Shown here piece after piece: positions 3,960 through 38,794 of a stretch of DNA of 39,664 bases. A model generated the notes under the pieces. It did not search any database, was not told where the DNA came from, and saw only the letters and a list, made by a program, of their open reading frames with translations. How positions within the stretch are numbered: the first letter of the stretch is position 1; every line of letters starts with the position of its first letter. Origin of the DNA: a virus. The DNA lies in IMG/VR virus record IMGVR_UViG_3300045999_001070, positions 1-39,664 of that record; one strand, written 5' to 3'. The translations under genes were made by a program, and so were the position numbers.

Positions 3960-4199
3960 ATGATTGAAGGTACACCCACACAAAGACCATTCTTTGCTTT
4001 GTTCGATCACATTATGGAAAAGCATAATCTAAAGAACGATGCGAGACTTTATGAATTCTTTGATAAAAAGATGAGTAGGCCAGACATATCTAAGTTTCGT
4101 CATCGCAGAAAGAAAATGGGAGCTGGTCACATTCTCTTGATACATGAGAAATTAGGTATGCCCGTTGCTGACATACGTAGTTTTTTAGAGCAGGAGTAA
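3960..4199 (+). CDS. Small HTH (Cro/C1-like) DNA-binding protein
   Basis: A 79-residue protein with a repressor-like helix-turn-helix: HNLKNDARLYEFFDKKMSRP is the positioning pair, DISKFRHRRKKMG the recognition region, and HILLIHEKLGMPVADIRSFL the closing helices. Close look-alikes are common in Burkholderiales genomes and their phages, which is one hint to the host. AAGGAGATAAC directly before the ATG is a strong ribosome site. Whether it represses early genes or is a host-directed regulator cannot be told. Confidence 0.7.
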   Translation: MIEGTPTQRPFFALFDHIMEKHNLKNDARLYEFFDKKMSRPDISKFRHRRKKMGAGHILLIHEKLGMPVADIRSFLEQE

Positions 4200-4201
4200 C
4201 T

Positions 4202-4312
4202 ATGGAAGCCTTCACCATCATTACGTTTATTGGTGGCTTCCTAGTTGGGGCTGGTATTGCTACAGCAGTTATCTTCGGCTTTTTCTTTTGGCTGTTTTCG
4301 CGGAGCGAATAA
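4202..4312 (+). CDS. Single-span membrane peptide, 36 aa
   Basis: A short reading frame directly after the HTH gene, with GGAG in the end of that gene about 8 nt before the ATG. The peptide starts MEAFTIITF and has one long hydrophobic segment (about residues 5-31, ending FGFFFWLF) before SRSE. No family recognised. Its last 44 bp overlap, on the opposite strand, the 3' end of the last late gene, so at least one transcript here reads through coding sequence of the other strand. Confidence 0.5.
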   Translation: MEAFTIITFIGGFLVGAGIATAVIFGFFFWLFSRSE

Positions 4313-4424
4313 ATGACTGAGCCGTGGGGGCGCCTTTGCTCCCCGGCTGTCTCATTCTCTCACCGCTGCCAGCTTTGATACGCTGACGTTTAGCATGGAT
4401 GTTTGCGTATAGTCCGGGTTTCAT
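4269..4424 (-). CDS. Small basic conserved phage protein, 51 aa
   Basis: Begins MKPGLYANIHAKRQRIKAGS and continues with GERMRQPGSKGAPTAQSF, a pattern I recognise from many tailed phages as a short, Lys/Arg-rich conserved protein encoded near structural or lysis genes. No function is established; a minor virion or DNA-associated role is possible. The start forms an ATGA overlap with the 86-aa gene upstream. It is the last gene of the leftward late operon and overlaps antisense the membrane peptide at 4202-4312. No intrinsic terminator follows. Confidence 0.8.
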   Translation of the reverse strand: MKPGLYANIHAKRQRIKAGSGERMRQPGSKGAPTAQSFIRSAKTAKRKSRR

Positions 4425-4681
4425 CGGCATTTCCATCTCCGCATAGATGCTCTAGCGCGTTCTGAATTCTTAGCTGTCTTAACAATTGCGCCCATCCTTG
4501 CACAGAAGGATGCTCGTCTGCCAGCCTCAGACTTGCTAGGCTTGCTGGTAGTCACTGGAGGCTTGAGATTGCTTCCTGTCTCACGATTGTACTTAGCCCT
4601 ACCCTTGGCAGTTAAGCCAGCACCTTTGCTTGCTGGTAGCTTCTCACCACGGCCTACAGCTAAACTAGGATTCTTAGGCAT
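4421..4681 (-). CDS. Small basic conserved phage protein (DUF6321-like), 86 aa
   Basis: The start at 4681 is chosen because GGAG lies 7 nt upstream and the ATG overlaps the endolysin stop by one base; an earlier Met at 4693 is inside the endolysin gene. Signature segments are GLTAKGRAKYNRETGSNLK, RRASFCARMG and a C-terminal MRRWKCR, which match a widespread small phage protein family of unknown function. The protein is very basic with two Cys. It probably accompanies the virion or packaging, given its constant company with late genes; this is inference. Confidence 0.78.
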   Translation of the reverse strand: MPKNPSLAVGRGEKLPASKGAGLTAKGRAKYNRETGSNLKPPVTTSKPSKSEAGRRASFCARMGAIVKTAKNSERARASMRRWKCR

Positions 4682-28098: not shown

Positions 28099-28503
28099 CT
28101 ATCTCCCCTTAATTTGCTCATCTAAACGGTAATCTGAGTAATCTAACCTGTTTTTAAGCCCTAATTTGAGCTTAATTCCATCATTTCCTAGCTGCAAGCC
28201 ATATCCACGCACAATAACGGGCTTTGGAGTCTTCCTCCACTCCAGCCATTTCTGTCCAAACCGGATCATTACGGCTACTTCTCCGTTTTTCCACGCTAAA
28301 TACGCCTTAGAAACGCGTCTTTGCACCAATTCCGTCATGTGAGTTCGGTCATAGAAGAACATATCGTCCATTCTTGCCTTATCTACCCCGGATAACTCGT
28401 AAAACAGGCGCATAGGGATGCCGCGCTTCTTATCTGCGCGAAATCGTTTCATGATTTGCTTTAATTCCTCTTTAGGAATGATGTAATTGTCATTACTGTC
28501 CAT
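28099..28503 (-). CDS. Basic helical protein next to terminase, 134 aa
   Basis: Lys/Arg-rich helices (KQIMKRFRADKKRG, PMRLFYELSGVDKARMDDMF, RVSKAYLAWKNGEVAVMIRF) could form a helix-turn-helix DNA-binding unit. It starts 11 bp inside the terminase gene end. A DNA-recognition role in packaging is possible, but order differs from the usual small-then-large terminase layout, so I do not call it TerS. Reports of this protein in relatives are as hypothetical. Confidence 0.6.
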   Translation of the reverse strand: MDSNDNYIIPKEELKQIMKRFRADKKRGIPMRLFYELSGVDKARMDDMFFYDRTHMTELVQRRVSKAYLAWKNGEVAVMIRFGQKWLEWRKTPKPVIVRGYGLQLGNDGIKLKLGLKNRLDYSDYRLDEQIKGR

Positions 28504-30253
28504 AAACTCCTATCCTTTTCAGGTAGTCGGATACTGTTCTGCCCACAACAATCTGTTCTGGCGTACTGTCTTCCTGCGTTCTGCTGACATTCCTTGTAAT
28601 TTTCTGTGCAATTAAGCGAGGCTGGAGCTGTTCTGCATACGCAGCACAAGCCAAAGCAGTCGCCATGACACGATCATCCTTATTCCTACCAGATGCCAGA
28701 ATAGAACCGCCATCACGCACGATGGTTTTCATCTCATCTATCAATTCCGTAGAGGTAATCGTCATCATTCCGCGCTCGAAGTAGTCTTTCATGTAGGAAA
28801 GCATACGTTCTTTGCTGGCAGAGGTAGTCAACCAGCCAATAGAGTTAGATAAGCCACCCATTGTGTCGTTACGTCGCCAGATGTAATTGCTCATTGAACC
28901 CAATACGTCCATCAGTTGATGTCCGGTTTTACCGCCCAACGCTGCCGCCTGTCGTTTTAGGTTACGTAGCTCGTTTATGACTGCCTGACCGGGGCCATTT
29001 ACCTCTAAGTTTAATGTGGAGTTTTTGTATGCGCCAGCTAGGTGGGCAATTACCCACGCAAACTGGTAGGTATTCATCTCTGGTGTAGCAAACTCTGCAA
29101 CTTGCTCCATACCGTCAGCATAGCAACGGAACACTTGTATGCAAAAGCGATCAGCCCAATCAGAACTGCCATAGGCAGGATCAGCACCAATGACATAAAA
29201 AGCTGTATCAATGGGTTCCTCCCATACGTTTAGGGTAGCCATTCTGTCTGTCGATTTTAAAACTTCTGTATCTATAAAGTTAGCACCCATGCTGTAGCGG
29301 TAGTGGTCGCACTTAATCTGCTTGGCTATCTTCATAGCGTCCGTACAACGGGCATTAGAGAAGAAGCTAGTGCCTGTCATGATGAAGGCATAGTCTTCCG
29401 TAGGTGGAAACTCTTGATACATCAACGCATCATCTTTGATGCCTTCGTAGAGCTTCCAGCGCCACCAAGCAATCTGCCGAGAGTTGATCTCTACGTTGTA
29501 GAGTTTCTTAATATCTCGCGTCCACTCTTTTTCTTCTGGCGTTAGCTTTCCATCCCAATACACTTTGTAGAGATTAGATTCGCCGGGTACAGAGTAGAGT
29601 TGGTTACGCCACCAGCCGCAGAAGATAGCGTGTTGAGAACGTGCGCGTTTAGCAGTGACGTACATATCGTGGAACATATTAAATCCACGCGCTGTGGACT
29701 CGAAGATATACAGTCGCTTCTCGTTGGTTTCAGCAAGGGATGCTAAGAGGGACGCTAATCCTTCCTCGTCACCCCACGACGAAGTTTCAGTTCCGTGAAG
29801 GAATGTAATACCCTTGCCACGACCAAGACTTCCTTTCGCTCTAAGCCCTGCGACTTGATAAAAGATTCGACTTCTGTTCTTGAGTGCAAGCGAGTTTCTA
29901 TTGTGTGAGAGTATGGGTATCTTGTACTCTTTTGGCAAACCATCCATATAGGCCGTGAGTGTTCCTTTGAACATATCGCGGTTTTCTTCAGTATCTGTGA
30001 CCAGTGTTCCATTAAGTCCATTGTTTAAATAATGCCAGTAGAGGTCGAGGGCTAGAGAAATAGTGGTAATACCAAGCTGTCGGCCTTTCAAGATAACGAA
30101 GAAGTGAATGTTATCTTTTAAGCCCTGCGTTATTTCATCCATTACATACGTCTGCGTACCTAATAAATTATCTAGGTTACGCAAGCCTTGTTCTTTTGTT
30201 TCAATTTGCAACTTAGAACAAAACTTATAAAACTGGTTGAGATTAAAATTCAT
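28493..30253 (-). CDS. terL: Terminase large subunit
   Basis: A 586-residue packaging motor with ATPase and nuclease domains. A deviant Walker A is visible at KGRQLGIT (56-63), a probable Walker B at FLHGTE (151-156) and a coupling motif ESTARG (185-190). The nuclease domain starts around 355 with GADPAYG (356-362), whose Asp is a metal ligand, and later acidic residues follow (NLEVNGPG and NKDDRVMATALACAAYAEQL). It cuts concatemeric DNA and pumps it through the portal. The domain type points to headful packaging, in line with a circularly permuted genome, though family placement would need a search. Confidence 0.85.
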   Translation of the reverse strand: MNFNLNQFYKFCSKLQIETKEQGLRNLDNLLGTQTYVMDEITQGLKDNIHFFVILKGRQLGITTISLALDLYWHYLNNGLNGTLVTDTEENRDMFKGTLTAYMDGLPKEYKIPILSHNRNSLALKNRSRIFYQVAGLRAKGSLGRGKGITFLHGTETSSWGDEEGLASLLASLAETNEKRLYIFESTARGFNMFHDMYVTAKRARSQHAIFCGWWRNQLYSVPGESNLYKVYWDGKLTPEEKEWTRDIKKLYNVEINSRQIAWWRWKLYEGIKDDALMYQEFPPTEDYAFIMTGTSFFSNARCTDAMKIAKQIKCDHYRYSMGANFIDTEVLKSTDRMATLNVWEEPIDTAFYVIGADPAYGSSDWADRFCIQVFRCYADGMEQVAEFATPEMNTYQFAWVIAHLAGAYKNSTLNLEVNGPGQAVINELRNLKRQAAALGGKTGHQLMDVLGSMSNYIWRRNDTMGGLSNSIGWLTTSASKERMLSYMKDYFERGMMTITSTELIDEMKTIVRDGGSILASGRNKDDRVMATALACAAYAEQLQPRLIAQKITRNVSRTQEDSTPEQIVVGRTVSDYLKRIGVYGQ

Positions 30254-31791: not shown

Positions 31792-31972
31792 TTAGCACCT
31801 TCTTCATTCTCGACATCTCAGAGAGACATTCAGCCAACAAACCAGCAGAACGGGCTTGCTGACGACGCAACTCCATCACCAGCTCAGCATGGTTCATGCG
31901 ACGTACTTGATTCCAGTAGTCATCCGCTTCCATATCCACATAGTCTTCATGCAACTCAATAACATTACTCAT
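31769..31972 (-). CDS. Hypothetical helical protein, 67 aa
   Basis: GGAGG lies 6 nt before the ATG at 31972, which overlaps the upstream stop by ATGA; an earlier in-frame ATG at 31984 lacks such a site. MSNVIELHEDYVDMEADDYW is followed by an amphipathic helix (AELVMELRRQQARSAGLLAE). No family recognised. Confidence 0.6.
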   Translation of the reverse strand: MSNVIELHEDYVDMEADDYWNQVRRMNHAELVMELRRQQARSAGLLAECLSEMSRMKKVLNGELYAG

Positions 31973-32202
31973 TCTGACCTCCATACACGTATCCCATCAC
32001 CCTCACGGCGAGCAATAAACTTCACACCCAACTTCTTACCCGCCCTCCAATTACCGTTCAACACAACCTGCATCTGCACACCCTCAACGTAAAAGCTCTG
32101 CCCTACACCCATCTCCGCATACGGATAGCGTCTTACTACCCTCGCACCCGGCATAGGTACAGCATCATCAATAATAACTCCCATATCCTCACCTCTATCC
32201 AT
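31969..32202 (-). CDS. DUF7303-like small phage protein, 77 aa
   Basis: First gene of the leftward late operon. AGGAGGT sits 6 nt before the ATG. The motif PYAEMGVGQSFYVEG followed by GKKLGVKFIARREGDGIRVW matches a small phage and plasmid protein type I associate with DUF7303, of unknown function. Beta-rich and basic. A textbook terminator lies 42 bp upstream. Confidence 0.7.
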   Translation of the reverse strand: MDRGEDMGVIIDDAVPMPGARVVRRYPYAEMGVGQSFYVEGVQMQVVLNGNWRAGKKLGVKFIARREGDGIRVWRSE

Positions 32203-32243
32203 ATCAATACCTCCTAGCCATAATCATATACTACATACAGACG

Positions 32244-32270
32244 AAAAAAAACCCCAGTACAAGACCGGGG
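32244..32270 (-). terminator. Strong intrinsic terminator upstream of the late operon
   Basis: Leftward strand: CCCCGGT and ACTGGGG form a 7-bp stem (one G-T pair) with loop CTTGT, followed by eight T residues (A run at plus 32244-32251). It lies only 42 bp before the first late start codon, so it must end a transcript begun farther right, or be overridden for late transcription. Confidence 0.85.
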
Positions 32271-32460
32271 CTAATGACCACGCCGAGTGTGAAGGAAAAC
32301 GCAGTCAACACAGAAGGAAAATCAAGGTTGTTGGTACTCGCTGCGTCTGGCACGCCATAACCGCATAGGAGGTGCAGTCACCAGCATCCGCAAATACCAA
32401 CACGACTGAGGACTGCCCGGGTCAGTCGGTTAGTCATCACCAAAGCAATGACACAATCCT
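32244..32460 (-). ncRNA. Candidate structured RNA ending at the late-leader terminator
   Basis: Nested complementary segments can form a long interrupted rod: TGTTGGTA (32329-32336) with TACCAACA (32395-32402), TGCG (32342-32345) with CGCA (32389-32392), CTGG (32347-32350) with CCAG (32381-32384), and GCAC (32350-32353) with GTGC (32372-32375) as an inner alternative. Two more hairpins are GACTG/CAGTC (32411-32415 and 32423-32427) and GTCAT/ATGAC (32433-32437 and 32448-32452). The leftward terminator with T8 gives the orientation. No protein frame or tRNA feature explains this stretch. It could be a leader RNA like the lambda pR' transcript or a regulatory RNA. The 5' end is a guess; no clear promoter is visible. 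Confidence 0.45.
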
Positions 32461-32597
32461 CATGCGTGTAAACAAAGATTAACAGAACTCAGAAAAACAG
32501 TAAATTTCTTTGGGGAGGGAACGGAGAAGGGCACGCAACAATCAAGGTCAAGACCCATCGATATAGACAAAAAGATAATTACAAAAGCAGCAATAAT

Positions 32598-32612
32598 AAG
32601 GGTCAGACCCTT
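32598..32612. promoter_or_regulatory. Palindrome AAGGGTCAGACCCTT with a weaker second site
   Basis: A perfect 15-bp inverted repeat centred on one base. A related, looser palindrome, GGTCAAGACC, lies about 53 bp to the left (32546-32555). Paired symmetric sites in a divergent control region are typical operators. On the plus strand the large one is followed by TTCCCTTTT, so a weak terminator is the alternative. Confidence 0.4.
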
Positions 32613-32756: not shown

Positions 32757-32925
32757 GACAACTGCTATATATTTATATTAACAAAATTATATAACAATTA
32801 TATAAACACTCTATATATATTATATAGATATATATAGCCTATGACTATTGCCTATAAACAATACATTGTTAAATACAATGAACATAACCTATTGCATAAT
32901 ACTATAACCTATATATAATGCTTTA
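32757..32925. other. AT-rich tract with CCTAT repeats
   Basis: Dominated by A/T with runs of TATATA. CCTAT occurs at 32838, 32851, 32888 and 32908, and ACAAT/ATTGT half-sites occur near 32860-32880. It may serve DNA unwinding, promoter function or protein binding. CCTAT also appears twice beside the DnaA boxes (about 35863 and 35881). The spacing is not regular, so iterons are not claimed. Confidence 0.4.
32892..32919 (+). promoter_or_regulatory. Candidate rightward early promoter
   Basis: A perfect TATAAT (32914-32919) stands 16 bp after TTGCAT (32892-32897), a weak -35. Transcription would start near 32926 and give a leader of about 43 nt before the ArdC-like start at 32969. The AT-rich surroundings make chance -10 matches likely, so this is a moderate call. 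Confidence 0.45.
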
Positions 32926-32968
32926 CAGCAACACTGTTTTTAATAGTCAATTAAATAGGGGATTCGAT

Positions 32969-33847
32969 ATGACGACTATCTATCAGGAAATAACAGATTC
33001 AATCATTAGTGAACTAGAAAAAGGTGCTACGCCGTGGGTAAAGCCGTGGAATGCACCACAATCAGCGGATAAGAACATAGTCAGTGGTAACCCTTACCGT
33101 GGCATTAATCGGTTCATTACCGCAATGGTTAGTGGCATCAAAGGCTATAACAATCCAGCATGGGCAAGCTTAAAGCAATGGAATGAATTAGGCGGTCGAG
33201 TTCGTAAGGGTGAAAAGTCAACAAAAATTGTCTACTGGTCGCAAGCAAAAGATAAGAAAGCAGCAGCAGTCGGTGAAGATAAGTTTTATCAATTTGCAAT
33301 GGCTTACAGTGTTTTCAATGTTGAGCAGGTCGAAGGTATAGATATTATTGCCAGCGACGATATTCCAGTCAGTGACAATCAAAAGATTGAAGCTTGCGAA
33401 AGCAGAATCATTGCTACACAAGCAAAGTATTCTATAGGTGGTGACACTGCTTGCTATATCCCTTCAATAGATTCTATTCGTATGCCAGCACTAAATACAT
33501 TTCAATCCGCTGAGCACTACTACGCGACTTTCTTTCACGAACTAACACACTGGACTAGCGACAAAACGCGCTGTGATCGTGACTTATCTAAGGGTCGATT
33601 CGGTAATGCTGATTATGCTTTCGAGGAATTAGTCGCTGAACTAGGTGCAGCGTTTATGTGCCAGCAAATAGGTATCAAGGGCGACTTGCGACACGCTGGA
33701 TATATAGACCATTGGCTTAAGTGCTTGAAAGCAGATAGCAGAGCGATATTTAAAGCCAGTGCACTAGCACAACAAGCCAGCGATTTTCTGCTTATGTGCG
33801 GTACTGATAAGCAGGAACTAGTCAACGACGAATTACTAGCAGCATAA
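32969..33847 (+). CDS. ardC-like: ArdC-like antirestriction protein (ssDNA-binding domain + zincin)
   Basis: A 292-residue protein with the two-part ArdC layout. The N-terminal domain (about 1-125) has ATPWVKPWNAP, GNPYRGINRF, ASLKQWNELGGRVRKGEKST and YSVFNVEQVEG, the hallmark of the single-strand-DNA-binding ArdC_N domain. The C-terminal metallopeptidase has HELTH (190-194) with a downstream EELVAE carrying the third zinc ligand. ArdC proteins protect incoming DNA from type I and II restriction. The start at 32969 is set by GGGGAT 5 nt upstream; an earlier Met at 32918 lies in the promoter. As first rightward gene it would be made very early, as expected for antirestriction. Confidence 0.87.
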   Translation: MTTIYQEITDSIISELEKGATPWVKPWNAPQSADKNIVSGNPYRGINRFITAMVSGIKGYNNPAWASLKQWNELGGRVRKGEKSTKIVYWSQAKDKKAAAVGEDKFYQFAMAYSVFNVEQVEGIDIIASDDIPVSDNQKIEACESRIIATQAKYSIGGDTACYIPSIDSIRMPALNTFQSAEHYYATFFHELTHWTSDKTRCDRDLSKGRFGNADYAFEELVAELGAAFMCQQIGIKGDLRHAGYIDHWLKCLKADSRAIFKASALAQQASDFLLMCGTDKQELVNDELLAA

Positions 33848-36428: not shown

Positions 36429-36618
36429 TCAGGATGACGTTAATCGCGCCATAGAGAGGCTTACGTCAGTTCTGGAGGACGAATTCGGGAATGACATTGC
36501 CGCATGGGGATCAGCTACTCTGGTGCTGCTCTGCTCAATCATAGACATGACAGAAGCAGACAGACAGGAGATTGCTGAGCTTATCTTAAAACAACCACAT
36601 CACGGGGATTTGCAATGA
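36409..36618 (+). CDS. Small hypothetical protein with GTG start, 69 aa
   Basis: GAGGAGG lies upstream of a GTG at 36409, 20 bp inside the end of the preceding gene. A helical protein with a hydrophobic middle (ATLVLLCSIIDMTEADRQEI). It is the full-length form of the fragment at 1-60. The stop overlaps the exonuclease ATG. The sequence resembles a short regulator or adaptor, without recognisable motif. Confidence 0.65.
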   Translation: MKPLPFSQDDVNRAIERLTSVLEDEFGNDIAAWGSATLVLLCSIIDMTEADRQEIAELILKQPHHGDLQ

Positions 36619-37520
36619 CAAGCGTAAACACAGATGATTTTGCACCAGAGGTACGTAATGCAGCATGGTGGTCAGGTGACAGCCGCCTAGCAGCTAATGG
36701 TAGGGCAGCAGACGCTATCCTTGTTAAGCAGGGAAAGAAGGAGCCGCCTGACTTATCTGACGTGGAGGAAGTACAAATGGGTAAGGTGATGGAGCCAACC
36801 ATTGCCAGACTGTTCCAAGACAAGCACAAGATAGAACTCAAGGACGCTGACTATGTTCTTTCGCATAAGACTGAGCCGTGGCTTAAATCTCATTTTGATT
36901 ACATCTCAGCAAATGGACGAATACTCGTTGAATGCAAAAACTACAACATGGGCGTTTTGTCTAAGTTCGACGAAGAAACAAACATGGTTCCTGCTCCAGA
37001 TATGGCGCAACTCGTCCACGAAGCGGCCTGTCATAACGTGGATGAGATTTATCTTGCGGTCTTGTTTGGTGGACAGAAGTTCAGAACATTCCACTTCACA
37101 ATCAGTCAGGAGATGAAGGATGAGCTTGTCAAAGAGATGGCAAAGTTTTGGGGCATTGTCGTATCGAATGCCGAGCCGCAGCCTAGTGATGTTGAGTCCA
37201 CAAAGCTTATCTGGCCTATTTCGAGTGAAGAGACGGCAACTGCTACAGGCGCGGTGGAACAGGCTTGTTCTGTCCTTAGTGAATACAAGGCACGCATCAA
37301 ACAACTTGAAACGGAAGCAGAGAAAGTCGAAGTTGCGATCAGGGAATACATGGGTGCGAAAGGTTCGCTGGTTAGCGTGGATGGAAAGACGCTTGTAACG
37401 TGGCGAAATTCCAAACCTAGTAAAAAGTTTGCGTCTGATTTGTTTCAACAAGCCATGCCTGATGTTTACCAGAAGTTTGTAATTGAAATGCCCGGCAGTC
37501 GTAGATTTTTACTTAAATAA
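36615..37520 (+). CDS. YqaJ-like viral recombinase / exonuclease (copy B)
   Basis: 301 residues, homologous to 57-962 with about 24 substitutions. The active-site segments are kept (GKVMEP, HFDY, ECK). Changes cluster in the last 35 residues (for example SKKFASDLFQQ here, SMKFSGELFKQ there, and EMPGSRRF against EVNGSRRF), a region that may touch the annealing protein. Same ribosome site and ATGA overlap as copy A. Confidence 0.88.
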   Translation: MTSVNTDDFAPEVRNAAWWSGDSRLAANGRAADAILVKQGKKEPPDLSDVEEVQMGKVMEPTIARLFQDKHKIELKDADYVLSHKTEPWLKSHFDYISANGRILVECKNYNMGVLSKFDEETNMVPAPDMAQLVHEAACHNVDEIYLAVLFGGQKFRTFHFTISQEMKDELVKEMAKFWGIVVSNAEPQPSDVESTKLIWPISSEETATATGAVEQACSVLSEYKARIKQLETEAEKVEVAIREYMGAKGSLVSVDGKTLVTWRNSKPSKKFASDLFQQAMPDVYQKFVIEMPGSRRFLLK

Positions 37521-37530
37521 GGGGATGAGA

Positions 37531-37710
37531 ATGAATGTATTTCCAACGTCAATTCATCAGAGTGATGGAATGACATTAAGAGACTACTTAGCAGCACAAG
37601 CCATGCAATCGTTACTTTGGAATCCTGATGCTAACTTAGATTCAAAAGAAGATGTGTGTGCAGCAGCCTATGAATATGCAGATGAGATGATGAAAGCGAG
37701 GGCAACATGA
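37531..37710 (+). CDS. Small conserved hypothetical protein, 59 aa (copy B)
   Basis: Homologue of 973-1155, one codon shorter. The N-terminal third differs almost completely (MNVFPTSIHQSDGMT against MKAFPTPSQQTEQGMD), while the LRDYLAAQAMQSLLW and AAYEYADEMMKAR helices are conserved. The start at 37531 has GGGG 6 nt upstream; ATG at 37525 lies too near that site. Uneven divergence points to an unconstrained N-terminus. Confidence 0.78.
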   Translation: MNVFPTSIHQSDGMTLRDYLAAQAMQSLLWNPDANLDSKEDVCAAAYEYADEMMKARAT

Positions 37711-38516
37711 GTAACATAGTTCCGTATCAAGACATAGAAAAGATGGCAATAGCAGTCGCTAAGTCTGGATTGTTTAACGTCAAGACAGCAGAGGAAGCTA
37801 TGGCCTTAATGCTAGTAGCACAGGCAGAGGGTTCACACCCTGCTATAGCTGCGCGTGACTACCACGTTATCCAAGGTAGGCCAGCATTAAAAGCAGACGC
37901 AATGATGGCTAGGTTCCAGCAAGCAGGGGGCAAAGTTGAATGGACGGAGTACACAGATGAGCGAGTTACTGGTGTTTTTAGTCACCCCGCTGGCGGGAGT
38001 CTTGCTATTACTTGGACTATTGAAATGGGAAAGAATATCGGGTTGGTTAAACCGGGTAGTGGATGGCACAAATATCCTAGAGCTATGCTCAGAGCGCGCT
38101 GCATATCAGAAGGTATTCGATCCGTATATCCCGGCTGTGTCGCAGGTGTTTACACGCCAGAGGAAGTATCGGACATGGAGCCGCCAAAGCACCATCAGGA
38201 AGTCAACATGGGCAAAGCGGAAGTCGTGGTCGAAGAAATAAAGAAAGCCAAAGAAAGAAAAGAAGGTGAGATTTTTTTGCCACTGTTCGTTCCGGGGATA
38301 GAGGAGCCGTTCAGCGAATCAACGGATTTAGCAGAGTGGGAGATTTCTTTTCACGACATGGTTCACAAAATAAAGGCAAGCCAAAAGCTTAGCGGTGATA
38401 CCAAACGCGACAAACTAAAGATGCTTAAAGACGCAAATACCGAAGTAATAGATAAATTGGAAGCACCTGCAAAAATGAAAGTCATGGCTGCTGCAAACTC
38501 TCTGGAGGAAGTATGA
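37707..38516 (+). CDS. recT-like: RecT-like annealing protein (copy B)
   Basis: 269 residues, about 91 % identical to 1152-1961. The core (ARDYHVIQGRPALKADAMMA, KYPRAMLRARCISEGIR) is unchanged; differences lie at the N-terminus (MAIAVAKS against MAVVIAKS), at TDERVTG against TDDCVTG, and in the C-terminal charged tail. Both copies look intact, with no sign of decay in either. Confidence 0.72.
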   Translation: MSNIVPYQDIEKMAIAVAKSGLFNVKTAEEAMALMLVAQAEGSHPAIAARDYHVIQGRPALKADAMMARFQQAGGKVEWTEYTDERVTGVFSHPAGGSLAITWTIEMGKNIGLVKPGSGWHKYPRAMLRARCISEGIRSVYPGCVAGVYTPEEVSDMEPPKHHQEVNMGKAEVVVEEIKKAKERKEGEIFLPLFVPGIEEPFSESTDLAEWEISFHDMVHKIKASQKLSGDTKRDKLKMLKDANTEVIDKLEAPAKMKVMAAANSLEEV

Positions 38517-38794
38517 AGAATCACAACGAACGTCCCGGCAAGGGAGTGCTATTCACTAACGACAAACGTAAGACAGACACACAACCACATTTAAAAGGTG
38601 GCTTCACTGCTGACAGAGACATTAAGGCTGGTGAGTGGGTAAAGCTTGCAGGATGGCGTAAACCTACTCCAGTAGGGGAGCTTATATCACTGGCAGTGGA
38701 TAACTTCATGCCTGATCCAAACTATAAGAAACCTTCTGAGGGCAGCACAGTACGTGAGTACAGTCCGAATAGGGATGAAGAAATCCCATTCTAG
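38513..38794 (+). CDS. Small protein with SSB-like acidic tip (copy B)
   Basis: 93 residues, nearly identical to 1958-2239 (SLAVDN against SLAQDN, KPSEG against KPTEG, PNRDEEIPF against PHRDEEIPF). The acidic tip is exactly conserved although flanking residues vary, in line with a functional docking motif. Here the stop is TAG rather than TGA because the inserted HNH segment begins at the third base of the stop region. Confidence 0.7.
   Translation: MKNHNERPGKGVLFTNDKRKTDTQPHLKGGFTADRDIKAGEWVKLAGWRKPTPVGELISLAVDNFMPDPNYKKPSEGSTVREYSPNRDEEIPF

Follow-up and report, generated by a model that had tools for sequence, protein, structure and literature searches.

A predicted structured RNA in a phage late leader carries an inserted module of a widespread mosaic RNA family

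The divergent control region ahead of the late operon of this virus raises the question of whether its leftward strand encodes a structured RNA and, if so, of what kind. In the window (the whole stretch of DNA analysed, a 39,664-base virus record with a freshwater source), the original prediction had placed there an RNA with several helices on an 8-bp base, followed by a textbook terminator with T8, in a gene-free, GC-richer island and resembling no known family. Folding of this region is strand-specific. On the minus strand, positions 32240-32470 have a minimum free energy (MFE) of −85.1 kcal/mol and a z score of −3.33, with 1 of 200 dinucleotide shuffles equally stable, whereas the plus strand gives a z of 0.06 against such shuffles. 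The same difference is found for 32330-32470 alone (z of −3.65 on the minus strand and −0.29 on the plus strand) and for the tail with the terminator, 32243-32325 (−3.10 and −0.80). The GC content of the candidate RNA is 51.6% compared with 42.9% window-wide, exceeding that of 95% of 217-nt windows, and no ORF of at least 60 aa lies inside 32244-32459. All of the named helices, including the 8-bp base helix, exist at their predicted positions, and the terminator consists of 9 pairs with a 5-nt loop and the T8 tract. A comparison of the window with the 4,227 families of Rfam 15 returned no match at the gathering threshold, and hits with E values up to 10 were chance-level noise; neither ARAGORN nor the Rfam tRNA model found a tRNA cloverleaf in the window. 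These data confirmed that the minus strand encodes a real, strongly folded RNA. Its features, in the order of predicted transcription, are as follows.

32476..32504, minus strand: predicted promoter, with TTTACT at 32504-32499, a 17-nt spacer and the extended −10 element TGTTAATCT at 32484-32476
32326..32469, minus strand: putative inserted RNA module, alpha plus beta2, absent or doubled in relatives; pattern CAGTCYTCAGYYGTGTTGG
32400..32469, minus strand: alpha domain, with the stem ACACGCATGAGGATTG (32469-32454) / CAGTCCTCAGTCGTGT (32415-32400) and a C.Y plus A.G internal loop
32416..32453, minus strand: hypervariable arm A of alpha, 38 nt; different arms occupy the same slot elsewhere
32329..32402, minus strand: beta2 domain, with P1 formed by TGTTGGTA (32402-32395) / TACCAACA (32336-32329)
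32391-32382 / 32349-32337, minus strand: beta2 core, GCGGATGCTG / CAGACGCAGCGAG; the core plus P1 motif occurs in 49 viral contigs
32350..32381, minus strand: hypervariable arm V of beta2, 32 nt; a related arm occurs in locus L370
32275..32307, minus strand: pre-terminator hairpin of the conserved late leader; 6 of 8 pairs changed on both sides among 12 relatives
32244..32272, minus strand: intrinsic terminator, T8 at 32251-32244; 7 of 9 pairs changed on both sides
31969..32202, minus strand: first late-operon gene (77 aa), then small genes and terminase; ORF, with tblastn synteny in 62 relatives

The alpha stem had been overlooked in the original prediction. It is the MFE structure when the module is folded alone, and the full-length MFE favours an alternative over it by about 2 kcal/mol. 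Because the predicted promoter lies at 32504-32476, the 5′ end is likelier to be near 32469 than at 32460; of the RNA of roughly 200 nt that had been proposed to end before the late operon, the intrinsic terminator and the approximate length (about 220 nt) were borne out, and the start was moved. A discrete transcript of about 226 nt (32469-32244, minus strand) is thus probable, and we hold the predicted identity and architecture of the RNA with high confidence.

To place the leader in context, relatives were collected through TerL, giving 80 related IMG/VR loci and two Manatee Spring phages. Terminase lies in the leftward late operon at 28493-30253, and the first late gene, for whose 77-aa product no confident family was found, is retained in 62 related loci. 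The relatives usually have an intrinsic terminator 16-74 nt before this gene; in two of them (L010 and L011), an extra gene separates the leader terminator from the orf77 homologue, and the terminator is about 710 nt upstream. Across 12 aligned leaders, 13 of the 17 pairs of hairpin and terminator changed on both sides, and 93.9% of cells are paired compared with 74.8% in shuffled alignments and 32-47% in slid structures; none of 500 shuffles reached the observed score. The extended −10 motif TGNTAWNCT stands ahead of the leader in 18 of the 43 relatives with a terminator at the late leader, compared with 1.4% of random windows. In the window, L058 and L077, it lies exactly 17 nt before the module, whose 5′ end falls at the predicted start (about 32469 in the window); a generic promoter scan did not pick up the extended −10 promoter at 32504-32476. 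The locus thus has the makeup of an intrinsically terminated late leader (promoter, short leader and terminator, conserved in relatives), and 32243-32325 is, as far as these alignments tell, an ordinary ancestral late leader upstream of the same late operon in relatives. By analogy, read-through or antitermination of the leader terminator would be implied. No Q-like gene or family was found among the window proteins searched, and many small ORFs have no family.

Several other parts of the window drew our attention. An ArdC-type antirestriction protein is encoded at 32918-33847 on the plus strand. In the divergent region, 32598-32612 is a perfect palindrome, AAGGGTCAGACCCTT, which is terminator-like on both strands, was not seen in L004 and may be an operator. 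Two divergent RecE-RecT-SSB-like cassettes occupy 57-2239 and 36615-38794. A second strong fold (z of −3.75 on the plus and −3.60 on the minus strand) lies between convergent operons at 4195-4435. Within it, a short hydrophobic ORF runs from 4203, and at about 4316-4360 a GC-rich hairpin resembles a two-way terminator.

The nested helices upstream of the ancestral leader have a different history. The module of about 145 nt between the predicted promoter and the terminator is missing from L004, L005, L010 and most relatives, doubled in L008, L009 and L018, and present with different inner sequences in L006 and L011. Its alpha motif occurs in 10 of the 43 leaders, and the 33 leaders without the module keep the order of promoter, hairpin, terminator and operon. 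Since the nested-helix part can be missing, doubled or replaced, the original prediction does not hold as stated, the parts of the candidate differing in history; comparison indicates that a discrete module (32326-32469) is inserted into an older promoter-hairpin-terminator leader. Uncompensated breaks in the helices would have counted against the original prediction; instead, the pre-terminator hairpin and the terminator covary in relatives, and the helices of the module covary across phages. In three sister contigs, the 228-bp leader is identical, whereas adjoining genes differ by about 1% and upstream DNA by 10-60%; constraint would explain this, but so little divergence cannot prove it. 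A further element, AACTTTAYAGT, often paired, was noticed near modules (L006, L009, L011, L118, L161, L166 and L369); 14 of its 26 occurrences are within 250 nt of modules, which make up 4.2% of the sequence.

How far does the module extend beyond these relatives? A blastn search with the whole leader gave no match among phages, and the family surfaced only with short conserved motifs as queries. The CAGTCYTCAGYYGTGTTGG motif occurs in at least 119 viral contigs. When the copies were aligned by reading, their skeleton proved to be fixed (ACGCATGAGGATTG, arm A, CAGTCCTCAGYCGTGTTGG, domain B, CCAACA) and their arms unrelated. With a short query, blastn revealed a sister skeleton in cultured phages (GGTAAGAGCATTG, A, CAGTGCTCTTTCC, GTTGTGGTG, B, CACCACAAC), which is present in 439 phage records and in 1,555 of 5,426 complete Escherichia coli genomes (about 29%). 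Loci with this sister skeleton were examined in PY54, mEp460, Bas80, IME11, HK633, CUS-3, the P1-like phage D6, D3, lambda and DE3, and the family is found in lambda, P1-like and N4-like phages and in prophages. Lambda and DE3 have an unannotated copy between Q and the holin gene S, with a clear alpha and a degenerate beta (in lambda, L208 1440-1570, corresponding to PV340536 17064-17194). In total, 261 arrays were recorded in 254 loci, 34 of them multi-domain, and nearly all of the examined loci have no annotation for the copy. Rfam matches in related loci were to tRNA, abiF, int-alpA, isrK and C4, with sub-threshold STnc100 and tmRNA, and none fell on the scaffolds; the abiF match beside the module in L113 overlaps a terminator hairpin. 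We found no description of the RNA family in open PMC text, so that one may exist in a closed paper or a preprint. By these searches, the module belongs to a widespread mosaic phage RNA family that is absent from Rfam 15 and appears to have escaped annotation so far.

Covariation provides the main evidence that the scaffolds are RNA structures. The beta1 scaffold (128 copies) consists of P1, hairpin RATGCGNAGGCTGATNCGC, a variable arm of 26-162 nt, hairpin GCCGGAGATCAGYRCCGGY and P1′. It has 59 distinct complementary P1 helices, with at least 7 pairs in 115 of the 128 copies. Among 106 distinct skeletons, a subset that needed at least 5 of 7 pairs (a filter that dropped few of the 128 copies), P1 is 98.2% paired compared with 67% with shuffled partners. 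These P1 helices contain 37 G.U but 2 A.C pairs, so that the constraint acts on RNA of this strand. Over 31 diverse beta1 sequences, 98.2% of cells are paired compared with 32-49% in slid structures, and none of 500 shuffles matched this. The two hairpin loops of beta1 could form 6 pairs (GCUGAU/AUCAGY); because these hardly vary, the loop-loop helix is compatible with the data but unproven.

The window copy is of the beta2 type (55 copies), which is built of P1, GAAA, GCGGATGCTG, arm, CAGACGCAGCGAGTA and P1′; the window has TATTT where most copies have GAAA. Here P1 is 92.4% paired compared with 71.5% for shuffled partners, whose maximum was 78.2%. For alpha, 32 distinct complementary core stems were found in other copies. 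Its lower part uses a strand of P1, so that alpha and P1 compete: the middle strand, GTGTTGG, pairs either to the left (alpha) or to the right (P1), the two being mutually exclusive, and this choice is conserved in other copies. Domains can also be nested: L361 and loci related to it have beta1 where beta2 would carry its arm. Taken together, the alignments indicate that three scaffold types, alpha, beta1 and beta2, retain their helices by wholesale compensatory change.

The arms follow other rules. Among the 325 arms, 51 families extend over more than one locus and take in 142 arms; for 67 of the 103 pairs that share an arm, no similarity is seen between the flanks. One example is L370, where a relative of the window's V arm sits between flanks without detectable similarity to those in the window. 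The largest arm family, A1, has 26 pairs, 9 of them compensatory and 0 broken. Under strict clustering, one arm family occurs in different scaffold slots, and looser clustering adds L099, L088 and L154. These comparisons indicate that the arms are hypervariable and exchanged between unrelated phages. Arm stability has a mean z of −0.5 to −0.7 against shuffles, and the strand difference is clear only in alpha arms; because the average gain in stability over shuffles is only weak, many arms may be passengers. A tRNA T-loop motif is present in 12 arms, compared with about 0.8 expected.

The surroundings of the copies are varied. In 137 of 182 arrays, the gene that follows has the same orientation as the RNA, and intrinsic terminators within 200 nt 3′ are commoner on the RNA strand (35 of 246 copies) than on the other strand (6); both count in favour of the reading that we prefer below. 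Downstream genes include those for the small and large terminase subunits and DNA polymerase; further copies lie among tRNA genes or between a prophage repressor and yfdP. With such varied downstream genes and with copies in tRNA clusters, the copies would seem to ride in strongly transcribed operon leaders rather than with one gene. ORFs of at least 90 aa, which are not necessarily genes, overlap 62 of 185 arrays. tRNA genes adjoin several copies, and one E. coli copy is annotated as a pseudogenic tRNA-Gly.

Beside enterobacterial alpha/beta modules, we also observed a tmRNA-like coding domain with a possible PK1-type pseudoknot, the sequence GCA-AAC-GAN and short tag ORFs (ANDDVVLMAA*, ANDDLMMVAA*, ANDEQFLAVA* and ANEEMYLAVA*). 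It is located at L204 1313, L205 1308, L206 1279, L210 1302, L211 781 and L216 2301, and also in L265, L311, L316, L502 and others. Rfam tmRNA models reach it only below threshold, and ARAGORN makes no call; it is possibly an unrecognised phage tmRNA-like RNA.

Several known systems resemble parts of this arrangement. In lambda pR′-tR′ (6S RNA), a promoter, a leader of about 200 nt and an intrinsic terminator stand directly before the late genes. The window has the same layout of promoter, leader, terminator and late gene, but differs in that a module sits between promoter and terminator and in that no Q was found; lambda's own copy, between Q and S, is one that we take to be placed beyond tR′. 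The beta1 scaffold has tRNA dimensions: a 7-bp P1, a 4-bp and a 5-bp hairpin, a second hairpin that abuts P1 with zero gap, matching the acceptor, D and T arms, and loops that can pair at the place of the contact between D and T loops. In contrast to tRNA, it has a possible 6-bp Watson-Crick loop-loop helix, an arm of 26-162 nt in place of the anticodon arm, and no CCA. This tRNA-like topology is a property of beta1 copies in other phages, the window copy being beta2, and neither ARAGORN nor the Rfam tRNA model called the scaffolds tRNA, although nearby tRNAs were called in other loci. Both the tRNA dimensions and the lambda-like layout are resemblances in how such RNAs might work. T4 rnaC and rnaD are stable RNAs beside a tRNA cluster. 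Much as the family has tRNA-like arms, rnaC (L503 1409-1547) combines a large body that is no cloverleaf with a tRNA-type T arm, CCGGGTTCGAATCCCGG, at its end; inspection by eye revealed none of the three scaffolds (alpha, beta1, beta2) in rnaC or rnaD. GOLLD and ROOL are large, ornate RNAs of phages and mobile elements, each a single large fold, unlike the exchangeable scaffolds described here, and neither had an Rfam match in the scanned loci.

Prophage anti-sRNAs offer another parallel. AgvB and AsxR are short RNAs that prophages encode close to Q and the late region; their recognition parts vary, and they act on host sRNAs (PMC4104026). Their length is 51-60 nt, the 3′ end being conserved and the 5′ end variable. 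Identity with them was rejected, as neither RF02702 nor RF02703 matched the window or 34 related loci and the window RNA is about 226 nt long rather than 51-60 nt. Identity with Pas sRNA found no support, and phi29 pRNA had no Rfam match in the window. In L204, L205 and other enterobacterial copies, the P1 strand reads CACAACA, the GcvB R1 target consensus cited for AgvB (PMC4104026); because other lineages have different P1 sequences, this match is possibly a coincidence.

Could the module simply control its own operon? As a cis-acting attenuator or antitermination RNA of the HK022 put or lambda pR′ leader type, it would set read-through at 32244 by alternative pairings. Its place between predicted promoter and terminator would suit such a role, as would the conserved, mutually exclusive pairing of GTGTTGG and the frequent placement of copies immediately ahead of genes for terminase or DNA polymerase or, in lambda, between Q and S. 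However, an intrinsic terminator is present within 200 nt 3′ in only 35 of 246 copies, the arms are unrelated between phages, some copies sit among tRNA genes, and 33 of 43 relatives have the same leader order with no module. The many relatives lacking it weaken the idea of a cis switch, which we consider unlikely. The hairpins might instead act as DNA, as attC-like recombination cassettes folded in single strands, with the RNA incidental. Exchange of arms between unrelated phages, direct repeats (CACAAC or CCAAC) flanking the cassettes and tandem arrays all speak for a comparison with integron attC; the G.U excess over A.C and the strand asymmetry of folding favour RNA, and the arm families have compensatory changes of their own, which together make action as DNA improbable.

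The T-loop motifs, the neighbouring tRNA genes and the pseudogenic tRNA-Gly annotation would also agree with an origin in tRNA genes that are decaying or have been exapted, left over from phage tRNA clusters and merely tolerated in noncoding leaders. Decay cannot yield dozens of perfectly paired, compensated helices, though, so that covariation strongly opposes this origin, and most arms have no tRNA feature; we judge it highly improbable. Least probable of all is a packaging-related RNA in the sense of phi29 pRNA. Several copies do lie just upstream of genes for the small or large terminase subunit, and the window copy heads a terminase-containing operon, but others precede DNA polymerase, lie between the prophage repressor and yfdP or reside in tRNA clusters, and most relatives that share the terminase lack the module.

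We therefore return to the reading of a promoter-to-terminator RNA that joins an ancestral leader (3′) to a copy of a modular phage RNA (5′) serving as a scaffold or decoy in trans, which we favour slightly. Sequence comparison by itself establishes the helices, the constraint on the RNA strand, the modular exchange and the insertion between predicted promoter and terminator. Unless it runs through the terminator, polymerase starting at the late promoter would make about 226 nt of RNA, with the 3′ end at 32244; most transcripts would presumably stop there before late gene expression, and the late genes would be expressed once the terminator is read through or antiterminated. The module would fold into alpha and beta2, present its two arms and work in trans as a stable scaffold or decoy that rides on the late promoter. 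Because scaffolds are kept whereas arms are exchanged, we infer an action in trans on something that varies between hosts. Possible partners of the arms are host proteins that bind or cleave RNA, defences that read tRNA, and RNAs of the host, and arms might be swapped as hosts differ; that exchangeable arms act in trans is a tentative proposal, to which we give somewhat less than even credence.

A wider reading is possible, but we put it forward with more doubt: phages of Proteobacteria may share a combinatorial RNA system in which tRNA-sized scaffolds, arrayed or nested, display horizontally exchanged structured arms. Equally speculative is the extension that this system engages changing host factors and that enterobacterial arrays add a tmRNA-like, tag-coding domain. 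If true, the combinatorial arms would be an RNA counterpart of hypervariable protein display; to our knowledge, constant covarying scaffolds with interchangeable, nested arms have no known counterpart. The proposal can be tested in laboratory phages, lambda having a partly degenerate copy and Bas80 (of the BASEL collection) and HK633 more complete ones. A covarying RNA present in lambda-type, P1-like and N4-like phages and in about 29% of complete E. coli genomes, yet apparently unannotated, would bear on why phages retain noncoding, tRNA-rich regions and on the unexplained stable RNAs of T4.
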